64,000 nucleotides of DNA from Fidelibacterota bacterium (lineage in GTDB: Bacteria; Fidelibacterota; UBA8477; JABMPR01), in NCBI GenBank assembly GCA_016784025.1, contig JADHVL010000005.1:1-64000 (forward strand), read 5' to 3'. A model generated the notes under the pieces. The model worked only from the letters and a program-made list of their open reading frames with translations. It had not been told where the DNA came from and did no database searches. The stretch's first letter is position 1, and every line of letters starts with the position of its first letter. Position numbers and translations under genes: made by a program. Positions 57,617 through 60,337 of the stretch are shown in pieces.

Positions 57617-58777
57617 ATGAAAGTAAACAGGAGATACATCAAGTTGCTCATCAACAAAACTCAGGATTTAGTCAAATTCATTCAAGATTTGGGAACGCCT
57701 CCCTATGTGTCGCTGGATACAGAATTTCTTTCTGAAAAAACCTATTACCCACAACTCTGCTTAATTCAAATTGCTCATGGTTCCCATGCCGCAGTTATTG
57801 ATGTCCTGGCAGATATTGATCTTGAACCTCTGATGCAATATCTCAAGAATCCTAAAATGGTAAAAGTCTTCCACGCTGCTGAACAGGACCTGGTTATTCT
57901 ATGGAATGATTTCAACTTGTCACTGACCCCAGTATTCGACACACAGATTGCAGCCATGGTTTGCGGCTTTGGAGATCAAGCCTCTTATGCTCAATTGGTC
58001 AAAACTTTTACGAAAGCCAGAATAGATAAAAGTTCACAAATTGTTGACTGGACAAAAAGACCCCTCCGAGATCGTGATATTGAATATGCCCAGGCCGATG
58101 TGACTCATCTTTGTTCTGTATATGAGCAGCTGCAATACAAAATTGAAAAACGAGGGCGAGCGAGTTGGGTGGCAGAGGAAATGTTGGAGTTATCAGACAA
58201 AAAACGCTTCGATTTCAACCCAGAAAATCAGACAAGGAAATTAAAATTAAGACACATGACCCCACGACGCATGGCGATGCTCCATGAATTGGTAGCCTGG
58301 CGCGAAGAACGGGCGAAAACGCAAAACATACCTCGAGGATGGGTCATAAAGGATCTTGCCCTACGTGACCTGGTTTCCAACCCTCCAGAGAGTCTGAAGG
58401 ATTTGGGACGGGCAAGGGGGATTGGTGGTAATGCCCAGGGAAGGACTGGAGAGGAAATTCTTAAAAGAATTCATAAAGTCAGGGAATTACCCATCTCAGA
58501 ATGTCCACCAGTTCATGATACTTCGTTGGACGAGGACATAAATGGTGATGCAATCGTGCTATTACGTGCCCTGCTCACCCAGATTTGTGAGAAAAATAAT
58601 GTGGCCCCAAAATTGGTAGCATCGAAATCCGATCTGGAACAATTGACCCTGGGTGTGGAGACAAGATTGTCCAGGGGCTGGCGCAAAGAGCTGTTCGGTG
58701 GACTCGCGGAGCAACTTCTGCAGGGACAAATATCATTGACCTTGTTACAGGGAAAAATTAGCATTTTAAAAAGGTAA
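57617..58777 (+). CDS. rnd: Ribonuclease D
   Basis: 386 residues. A DEDD 3'-5' exonuclease domain shows SLDTEFLSE (Asp34, Glu36), KVFHAAEQDLVIL, FDTQIAAMVCGFGDQ and DYAQADV-like IEYAQADVTHL. An HRDC domain follows (about 215-295). RNase D trims tRNA and other stable RNA 3' ends. The methyltransferase gene follows after 21 bases. Confidence 0.93.
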   Translation: MKVNRRYIKLLINKTQDLVKFIQDLGTPPYVSLDTEFLSEKTYYPQLCLIQIAHGSHAAVIDVLADIDLEPLMQYLKNPKMVKVFHAAEQDLVILWNDFNLSLTPVFDTQIAAMVCGFGDQASYAQLVKTFTKARIDKSSQIVDWTKRPLRDRDIEYAQADVTHLCSVYEQLQYKIEKRGRASWVAEEMLELSDKKRFDFNPENQTRKLKLRHMTPRRMAMLHELVAWREERAKTQNIPRGWVIKDLALRDLVSNPPESLKDLGRARGIGGNAQGRTGEEILKRIHKVRELPISECPPVHDTSLDEDINGDAIVLLRALLTQICEKNNVAPKLVASKSDLEQLTLGVETRLSRGWRKELFGGLAEQLLQGQISLTLLQGKISILKR

Positions 58778-58798: not shown

Positions 58799-59476
58799 AT
58801 GAGCAATCCAGCACCCATTAACAGAGTAACTCGGTCTAAAGCAGAAGCCAGAGCAAGTTATGATAAAATGAGTGGTTGGTATGACTTGCTCGCCGGTCTC
58901 TCAGAAAAAAAATATAAAGATATGGGTTTGCAGATCCTGGATATACAAGCAGGGGAGCAGGTTCTTGAAGTGGGTTTCGGAACGGGACAATGCCTGAAGG
59001 AAATGGCTCGGGCTGTTGGGGAAACAGGCCGAGTTTTTGGGGTAGATCTCTCTCAGGGAATGTTGGATGTCGCCCAGTCAAGGCTCCATAAGGCGGGGTT
59101 AGGTGATTTGGTTGAGTTTTGTCTCGGAGATGCAACAGAGTTACCCTATGCTGACAATTCCTTTGATGCAGTTTATTCAAGTTTCACCTTAGAGTTGTTC
59201 GACACTCCAGAAATTCCTGTGGTTCTATCAGAATGTCAGAGAGTTCTAAAGCCAGGAGGTCGACTTTGCATGGTGTCCATGTCCAAAAAGTCGAGGAGTG
59301 GATTAATGGTCAAACTTTATGAATGGACTCAGAAAAACTTCAATAAATATGTAGATTGTCGACCTATATATGTTGAACAATCAATCGGAGATAATGGTTT
59401 TATTATTTCAAGTGTGACAGAGATGTCAATGTTCGGTTTGCCAGTTGATATTGTCTTGGCAACGAAAGCCTGGTAG
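58799..59476 (+). CDS. Class I SAM-dependent methyltransferase (UbiE-like)
   Basis: 225 residues. Motif I is VLEVGFGTGQ at 55-64, then VFGVDLSQGMLDVAQSRL, FCLGDATELPYADNSFDAVY and ECQRVLKPGGRLCMVSM. The sequence is closest to the UbiE/COQ5 style, but the substrate is not evident. It is 18 bases upstream of the selenoprotein candidate and may form an operon with it. Confidence 0.85.
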   Translation: MSNPAPINRVTRSKAEARASYDKMSGWYDLLAGLSEKKYKDMGLQILDIQAGEQVLEVGFGTGQCLKEMARAVGETGRVFGVDLSQGMLDVAQSRLHKAGLGDLVEFCLGDATELPYADNSFDAVYSSFTLELFDTPEIPVVLSECQRVLKPGGRLCMVSMSKKSRSGLMVKLYEWTQKNFNKYVDCRPIYVEQSIGDNGFIISSVTEMSMFGLPVDIVLATKAW

Positions 59477-59494
59477 AGAGAAATAAGGGGAGAA

Positions 59495-60337
59495 ATGATG
59501 GTTAAAGCAAATGGTAATGTTACGGGAATGGGGGCTGTAGGAGCATTCCTGAAGGTAGGTACCTGATCAGAGACTTTGTTGAGAGTTCTCAACCAGGGAT
59601 TTGATAATAGCAAAACTTCAGAGGAAAAAGCAACTGCCCCTCTGGCCGGTGGCATCATGCAGCACGGCTATCAATGCGGAATGATATGGGGAGCGGCACT
59701 TGCAGCAGGAGCTGAAGCCTTCAGGCTCTCCGGCTCAGGATCAAAAGCTGAAACCAGAGCCGTTAAAGCATCTCAACAATTGGTTGAGACATTTCGAGCT
59801 CAAAATAAACATATAAATTGCCTTGAAATCACGGATATCGATAAAACAGCATCAACTTTAAAAATGGTGACCTTCTTTCTACTAAAAGGGGGAACTATAG
59901 GTTGTTTTCGAATGGCGGCGAAATTCGCTCCTCAAGCGTATGAGAAAATTGAGGAGACACTCTATGAAGAAGTGTCAGAATTTCCACCACAACCAGTGAG
60001 TTGTGCTTCCCTCTTAGCCAAGAAAATGGGTTTTTCAGATGAGCATCAAGTCATGGCTGCTGGTCTGGCAGGTGGTATTGGACTAAGTGGGGGTGCCTGC
60101 GGGGCACTGGGGGCTGCAATCTGGCTGAAAGGCCTGCAGAGCAATTCAGAATCTGGGGATAGACTCGATTTTAATAATCCTGCAACGCTAGCAGCCATGG
60201 AGAAATTTTTAGAAGTCAGCGATTATGAGTTTGAGTGTTCGGAAATTGTTGGTAGAAAATTTGAAAATGTGGAAGATCATGCCGACTACATTGCCTGTGG
60301 GGGCTGTTCAAAAATTCTTGATCAATTGGCACTTTAA
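59495..60337 (+). CDS. C_GCAxxG_C_C family redox protein, probable selenoprotein (in-frame TGA at 59564)
   Basis: 280 residues if TGA at 59564-59566 is read as selenocysteine (residue 24). GGGGAG at 59487-59492 precedes ATG 59495 or 59498; without Sec only TTG starts at 59576 or 59579, lacking an RBS, remain. The protein has two homologous halves. The first has U24-SETLLRVL, YQCGMIWGAAL and NCLEI. The second has SCASLLAKKM, GACGALGAAIW, ECSEIVG and CGGC. The TGA aligns with the first Cys of the second half. The hairpin directly downstream fits a SECIS element. I recall that some members of this family are annotated as selenoproteins. The biochemical role is unclear, perhaps redox. Confidence 0.75.
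59574..59598 (+). promoter_or_regulatory. Candidate bacterial SECIS hairpin
   Basis: CTTTGTTGAG (59574-59583) pairs with CTCAAC, a bulged C, and AGGG (59588-59598), giving ten pairs including two G-T. The loop AGTT has G in the second position. Seventeen bases lie between the TGA and the loop, within the 16-37 range described for bacterial SECIS elements. Confidence 0.6.

Follow-up and report, generated by a model that had tools for sequence, protein, structure and literature searches.

A predicted two-domain C_GCAxxG_C_C selenoprotein with an in-frame TGA at the first conserved cysteine position

The window, by which we mean the whole 64-kb stretch of DNA, carries a gene (59495..60337 on the + strand, below called the window's gene) that almost certainly encodes a selenoprotein of a known family. 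The best overall explanation, in which we place very high confidence, is that the gene specifies a tandem-domain C_GCAxxG_C_C selenoprotein in which an in-frame UGA would be decoded as selenocysteine (Sec). An initial annotation of this DNA had proposed a probable selenoprotein, and that reading is now supported by the presence of either TGA or a Cys codon at the site in relatives, by the sel genes of the same genome, by the fit of the downstream hairpin to the bacterial SECIS (bSECIS) model, by constraint at the RNA level and by covariation. Sequence comparison is enough to show where recoding would occur, which hairpin follows, that the Sec machinery is present and that Cys and Sec exchange at the site. 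Because the C-GCAxxG-C-C family is already known to include selenoproteins and is catalogued with them, the window's gene adds a well-supported member to it and is no surprise. The coordinates of the relevant features are collected in Table 1.

Table 1 Features of the window's gene and its upstream neighbours.
Feature	Position	Strand	Basis or remark
Two-domain C_GCAxxG_C_C selenoprotein gene (predicted)	59495..60337	+	TGA read as Sec; PF09719, TIGR01909
In-frame TGA, predicted Sec codon	59564..59566	+	First conserved Cys of domain 1
Ribosome-binding site AAGGGGAG (putative)	59485..59492	+	Sequence; congeneric sequences purine-rich at equivalent spot
bSECIS core, 6-bp stem GUUGAG/CUCAAC, loop AGUU	59578..59593	+	Fold; 17 nt after TGA
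Extended hairpin, lower stems 59574-59576/59595-59597 and 59566-59571/59600-59605	59566..59605	+	MFE fold
Cys61, QCG motif, GCAxxG equivalent of domain 1	59675..59677	+	Invariant, 77 sequences
Cys109, third conserved Cys, domain 1	59819..59821	+	Invariant, 77 sequences
Cys137, fourth conserved Cys, domain 1	59903..59905	+	Invariant, 77 sequences
Second C_GCAxxG_C_C domain, about residues 158-278 (limits chosen by us)	59966..60328	+	PF09719 stretches, half-vs-half profile
Class I SAM-dependent methyltransferase, directly upstream	58799..59476	+	Pfam; possibly shared transcript
Ribonuclease D (rnd), next upstream, neighbour only	57617..58777	+	TIGR01388 over cut-off

The reading frame and the two-domain protein

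The frame runs from an ATG at 59495 or 59498 through one TGA (59564-59566) to a TAA at 60335-60337, which bears out the single read-through TGA described initially, and the product would comprise 280 aa or 279 aa, respectively. The TGA is codon 24 when counted from ATG 59495, and Sec would be residue 23 when counted from ATG 59498; residue numbers such as Sec24 and Cys61 are counted from ATG 59495 throughout. The initial annotation had let a ribosome-binding site and an ATG at 59495-59500 open the frame. Both elements are present, but the second ATG, 59498, appears more likely to be the start than 59495, since it is spaced 5 nt from AAGGGGAG (2 nt for ATG 59495) and is retained in 7/7 of the closest congeneric sequences; the equivalent of ATG 59495 is TTG in L009 and missing in L013.

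Under the standard code the longest ORF of the same frame begins at TTG 59576, and standard gene calling would lose the first 26-27 residues, the probable active-site residue included, just as had been foreseen; TGA-bearing relatives would be shortened similarly. The TTG overlaps the hairpin and has no GGAG/GAGG-like motif ahead of it. This agrees with the earlier statement that TTG codons lacking a ribosome-binding site are what is left without Sec, but they are not the only starts, as an in-frame ATG is also available at 59657 (codon 55), and initiation there would cost the protein even more of domain 1. The window contains 41 TGAs that have at least 10 open codons (ATG/GTG included) before them and at least 60 after them, and 4 of these 41 also have a SECIS-like hairpin. 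The frame downstream of TGA 59564, with 257 codons, is by far the longest, the other three SECIS-like cases having 66-83.

Judged from its predicted sequence, the protein is a member of the C_GCAxxG_C_C family, as it passes the curated cut-offs of both PF09719 (77.1 bits against 27, in two matched stretches; Pfam) and TIGR01909, "C-GCAxxG-C-C family (seleno)protein" (56.8 bits against 47.4; NCBIfam). The two halves of the protein are alike (profile alignment E 8e-5, probability 61%). In 77 aligned sequences, drawn from the best 80 of 97 relatives and with Sec written as C, positions 24, 61, 109, 137, 170, 202 and 248 are invariant and position 271 is conserved in at least 90%, and thus each half has four Cys/Sec positions, of which the TGA is the first. 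The TGA aligns with the Cys of homologues in domain 1, which is where the first conserved Cys had been expected, and the cysteines of domain 2 are Cys170, Cys202 (in ACGALG), Cys248 and Cys271. The earlier statement that related members are annotated as selenoproteins is confirmed by the "(seleno)protein" of the NCBIfam family name and by the table of a 2026 review, in which C-GCAxxG-C-C selenoproteins have two entries, form 1 and form 2, citing work from 2007 and 2008; a text search for "GCAxxG" in the 2008 reference (PMC2398784) finds nothing.

The hairpin after the TGA and the Sec machinery

In the MFE fold six pairs (59578-59583/59588-59593) enclose a loop at 59584-59587 and are followed by three pairs and by six outer pairs. 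For the 43 bases from the TGA the folding energy is -16.3 kcal/mol, compared to -7.9 ± 2.3 kcal/mol for shuffled sequences (z -3.6), and 0/200 shuffles fold as well. G is found at loop position 2 and the distance from TGA to loop is 17 nt, so the 4-base loop, its G and the spacing of the initial description all stand, but not its single ten-pair stem. For the bSECIS scan we used our own script, not bSECISearch, with the limits printed in the legend to Fig. 2 of PMC13188914, i.e. a loop of 3-9 nt with G in one of the first two positions, 16-37 nt after the TGA, a stem of at least 4 bp and an energy of at most -7.5 kcal/mol. The window's hairpin fits this published model, with a loop of 4 nt, a distance of 17 nt, a stem of 6 bp and -12.2 kcal/mol. 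Among the best 80 of 97 relatives the test was passed by 35/43 TGA loci and 7/34 Cys loci (Fisher p 1.6e-7, relatedness uncorrected), and the failure of 8/43 TGA loci in this strict test counts against the reading. Rfam scans of the window and 11 loci at gathering thresholds gave no match to the families modelled there.

The hairpins of the relatives fall into several registers, which were counted in 44 TGA sequences (43 loci and the window) and 34 Cys loci. An AGUU loop at 17 nt is found in 23/44 TGA sequences and 1/34 Cys loci, a CGUGY loop at 17 nt in 4/44 and 0/34, and a GUY loop at 21 nt in 11/44 and 0/34. A CGUGA loop at 27 nt occurs in 3/44 TGA sequences, but the 27-nt register is present in 8/34 Cys loci and is therefore not diagnostic, and no register fits the TGA sequence in 3/44 cases. 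The arms of the relatives' hairpins covary; in the AGUU/17-nt class, for example, pair 3 is U-A in 18/23 sequences and C-G in 5/23.

A match to the window's gene was found in 14/60 searched genomes, the window's own counted. Nine full-length places in 8/19 genomes of the genus are interrupted only once, by a TGA at the codon in question, G052 from the same phylum has a full-length relative with Cys at the site, and the remaining matches are partial or distant. One partial relative, L017 in G002, looks decaying or misassembled. In the congener G007 the family is represented by two TGA-bearing copies, L008 and L021, the latter being 53% identical to the window's, with a different hairpin sequence at the equivalent spot and no adjoining methyltransferase.

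In the nine genus sequences 90.7% of the cells of the core stem are paired and 3 cells are changed on both sides, and each of these values, as well as the covariation score, was reached by 1/500 shuffles. Two other measures on the same nine sequences are unremarkable, namely the number of pairs with changes in both partners (2; 48/500 shuffles did as well) and the number of further pair types (4; 437/500). L012, L013, L014 and L021 have fold z values of -1.4, -1.3, -1.3 and -0.6, respectively, and between 20 and 56 of 200 shuffles fold equally well; L012 and L013 have a weaker outer stem, and despite the weak fold z both match the window exactly in the core stem.

The seven closest congeneric sequences share an identical run of 23 nt over the hairpin core, the next longest run being 8. 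In these seven, 250 codons were examined, of which 152 have an invariant amino acid; 20 of those 152 codons are identical in all seven, and 7 of them are consecutive at codons 28-34. In 147 pairwise comparisons of codons 28-34 there is not a single difference, either synonymous or nonsynonymous, compared to 944 synonymous and 510 nonsynonymous differences in 2646 comparisons for the variable codons 35-160, which points to constraint on codons 28-34 as RNA rather than as protein.

The SelA/SelB/SelC/SelD pathway of Sec insertion is established knowledge. All four components are present over their cut-offs in the window's genome (3.5 Mb in 47 contigs, 86% complete): SelB (343.2 bits) and SelA (511.8 bits), which share a contig, SelD (370.6 bits), and a tRNA-Sec (72 bits) that ARAGORN also reports as tRNA-SeC with anticodon tca. 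Within the window and 15 loci ARAGORN found no tRNA. Each of the four components scores above its cut-off in 17/19 genomes of the genus. In G013 the TGA gene coexists with a tRNA-Sec (62.6 bits), yet SelA gave no match and even the best matches to SelB and SelD fall short of their cut-offs; this draft is 86% complete, and the missing components perhaps reflect its incompleteness. Among the best 80 of 97 relatives, SelA is over the cut-off in 35/36 genomes with TGA loci and in 18/34 genomes with Cys loci (Fisher p 1.1e-5, relatedness uncorrected). The 36 TGA genomes represent 37 loci, two of which share one genome; the six TGA loci left out sit in genus genomes already searched, with SelA in 5/6, G013 being the exception. 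G090 (L158) has no SelA match.

The sel cluster of the window's genome (L023:3214-11571, contig C23) contains, in this order, a TauE-type transporter, selA, an Nramp-like transporter, selB and a mutS-like gene, the last of which was named by eye; the Nramp-like gene, flanked by selA and selB, could serve in the transport of selenium or a metal. The selD gene (L076, contig C42:55748-56671, - strand) itself has an in-frame TGA, in the context AAG-U-AGKIGPGDL, followed by a hairpin, and is probably a second selenoprotein gene of this genome. One TGA is carried by 17/17 genus SelD matches over the cut-off. Three SAR406 cluster bacteria have been listed with orphan SelD (PMC5029168).

In the mechanism that we propose, SelA and SelD would make the Sec-tRNA and the selenium donor, and SelB would bind the hairpin with its AGUU loop 17 nt after the UGA and bring Sec-tRNA(UCA) to decode UGA codon 24 (23 from the likely start). 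Actual insertion of Sec at the UGA is what we infer from the sequences. The selenol would then replace the first of four conserved Cys in domain 1 (Sec24, Cys61, Cys109, Cys137), and domain 2 would keep its four Cys at 170, 202, 248 and 271.

Sec and Cys among the relatives, and rival readings

The genome scan across phyla yielded 97 relatives, of which the best 80 were analysed. The codon at the TGA site is readable in 77 of these (it is uncovered in L134, L156 and L182) and is TGA in 43 and TGC or TGT in 34, which places Sec or Cys at residue 24 of the homologues; no other codon was found at the site in the 77 readable loci. The TGA count consists of 41 loci by direct alignment together with L157 and L161, where an alignment gap had shifted the TGA by one codon. 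On a tree of the 77 rows, calculated after masking of the site, the Sec rows are intermingled with the Cys rows, with 11 Sec/Cys changes on the best tree and at least 4 forced by starred branches; phylogenetically independent Sec/Cys pairs are few (4 on starred branches). Among the same best 80 of 97, an in-frame ATG lies 15-26 codons upstream of the site in 39/43 TGA loci and 31/34 Cys loci, which we take to mean that the N-terminal part belongs to the protein, and a SD-like 4-mer precedes this ATG in 39/43 and 20/34, respectively. Such a large natural series of Sec and Cys forms within one uncharacterised redox family provides a test bed for the benefit of Sec. One Zixibacteria genome (G061) holds two divergent TGA-bearing members, L110 and L175, one on each of the tree's two main branches, and L135 from Cloacimonadota is probably broken or misassembled.

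Could the TGA be a true stop with an internal start at TTG 59576 or ATG 59657, or else reflect a pseudogene or a sequencing error? A standard gene caller would indeed give a shortened frame, and additional stops do occur in relatives, namely a TAA 10 codons past the TGA in L135 and a TAG besides the TGA in the partial match L017. However, the same codon is TGA in as many as 43 loci and Cys in all of the other 34 readable ones (best 80 of 97), the upstream region corresponds to one with an ATG in 31/34 Cys loci as mentioned above, and the TTG is the poorly placed start already described. Moreover, codons 3-23, which precede the TGA, are conserved, with synonymous differences (151) exceeding nonsynonymous ones (99) in 441 pairwise comparisons. 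A conserved N-terminal part is left unexplained by a true stop, and we therefore reject this idea, the whole group of explanations being extremely improbable.

An open frame across the TGA would also be seen if TGA encoded one of the usual amino acids genome-wide (e.g. Trp, under a variant code) or were suppressed non-specifically. Global reassignment was rejected because 10/47 window ORFs of at least 200 aa terminate at TGA. In addition, homologues have Cys at the site and never Trp (77 readable, best 80 of 97), the genome has SelA, SelB, tRNA-Sec and SelD, and the hairpin is constrained at the nucleotide level, which together leave reassignment or suppression with a negligible probability. 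A recoded UGA could finally give a product that is mostly Cys, either by insertion of Cys at the UGA or as a mixed population under low selenium. Cys is after all the natural alternative in 34/77 readable loci (best 80 of 97), but a mostly-Cys product has no sequence support and selA accompanies the TGA allele in 35/36 searched genomes, so that we consider it very improbable; some insertion of Cys besides Sec would be compatible with the sequences. Decoding of the UGA as Sec is the reading that we retain below.

Possible function and comparison with known systems

The structure of the protein, which is predicted with confidence (pLDDT 89.6, pTM 0.90), has 15 helices and no strand of three or more residues. 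A fold search of solved structures with this model gave only chance-level matches (best E 1.0), and a profile search of the PDB gave no significant match (best E 0.063). Pfam labels PF09719 a "putative redox-active protein", and our best guess, in agreement with this label, is a role in thiol/selenol redox chemistry or in metal binding. The selenol may provide the catalytic atom, or a ligand, at a centre for thiol redox reactions or metal binding, and this centre may work with an adjacently encoded partner, the methyltransferase here and an MDR-type oxidoreductase in some relatives.

The methyltransferase adjoins the gene in 7/9 of the genus places (L007-L013), at which rnd is also present, but not at L014 and L021, which are divergent copies. 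Among the best 80 of 97 relatives, a member of the MDR oxidoreductase BLAST cluster is encoded no more than 200 nt away in the same orientation at 16/77 loci and a member of the methyltransferase BLAST cluster at 9/77, 5 of these from the window's genus; as the clusters are single-linkage BLAST groups in two large superfamilies, counted without a background rate, the functional link that they suggest is a lead and not a result. Of the 24 members of the MDR cluster, 7 were scanned with Pfam and are all MDR-type dehydrogenases, and 5/24 were scanned with NCBIfam, where the best model was a PIG3-like quinone oxidoreductase, in each case below the cut-off. At L114, L122 and L146 a single strand carries, one after another, an MDR oxidoreductase, a C_GCAxxG_C_C protein in the Cys form and a methyltransferase (by BLAST cluster); L122 has L146 as its sister in the tree, and the oxidoreductase frame of L122 is short (165 aa) and lies 330 nt upstream.

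Speculatively, the family might represent a widespread two-domain selenoenzyme with eight thiol/selenol positions and a helical fold for which no solved relative was found, partnered with an adjacent MDR-type NAD(P)H oxidoreductase and/or SAM methyltransferase, perhaps as a redox or metal/metalloid unit, and with several Sec/Cys switches across bacterial phyla. We regard this wider picture as possible but rather doubtful.

The window's gene provides Marinimicrobia, the presumed phylum of the window's genome, with a well-documented predicted selenoprotein together with a full Sec machinery. A search of one literature library found nothing that pairs Neomarinimicrobiota with selenocysteine, and it retrieved PMC8318568 and PMC9012183 for Marinimicrobia along with selenoprotein.

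Compared with bacterial Sec insertion as generally known, the window's genome has SelA, SelB, SelC and SelD alike, and in its loop size, G position, spacing and energy the hairpin stays inside the published ranges; the family differs in that its hairpins do not have one fixed sequence (AGUU at 17 nt, CGUGY at 17 nt, GUY at 21 nt). Among protein families, residues 23-118 are weakly similar to the HUGP/GUXX-star fusion selenoprotein (NF045501, 23.7 bits), but nowhere near its cut-off of 325 bits; 19/77 relatives match this model at E 1e-5 (best 80 of 97). The same residues match the DVU_1555 family (NF045669) with 44.5 bits, which is far under the cut-off of 103 bits, and the protein is thus not a member; 77/77 aligned relatives match this model at E 1e-5 (best 80 of 97). 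With the C-GCAxxG-C-C family (TIGR01909/PF09719) the protein shares scores above the cut-offs and four Cys/Sec positions in each half, and its tandem pair of domains, with the predicted Sec in domain 1 only, may set it apart from the listed forms 1 and 2.
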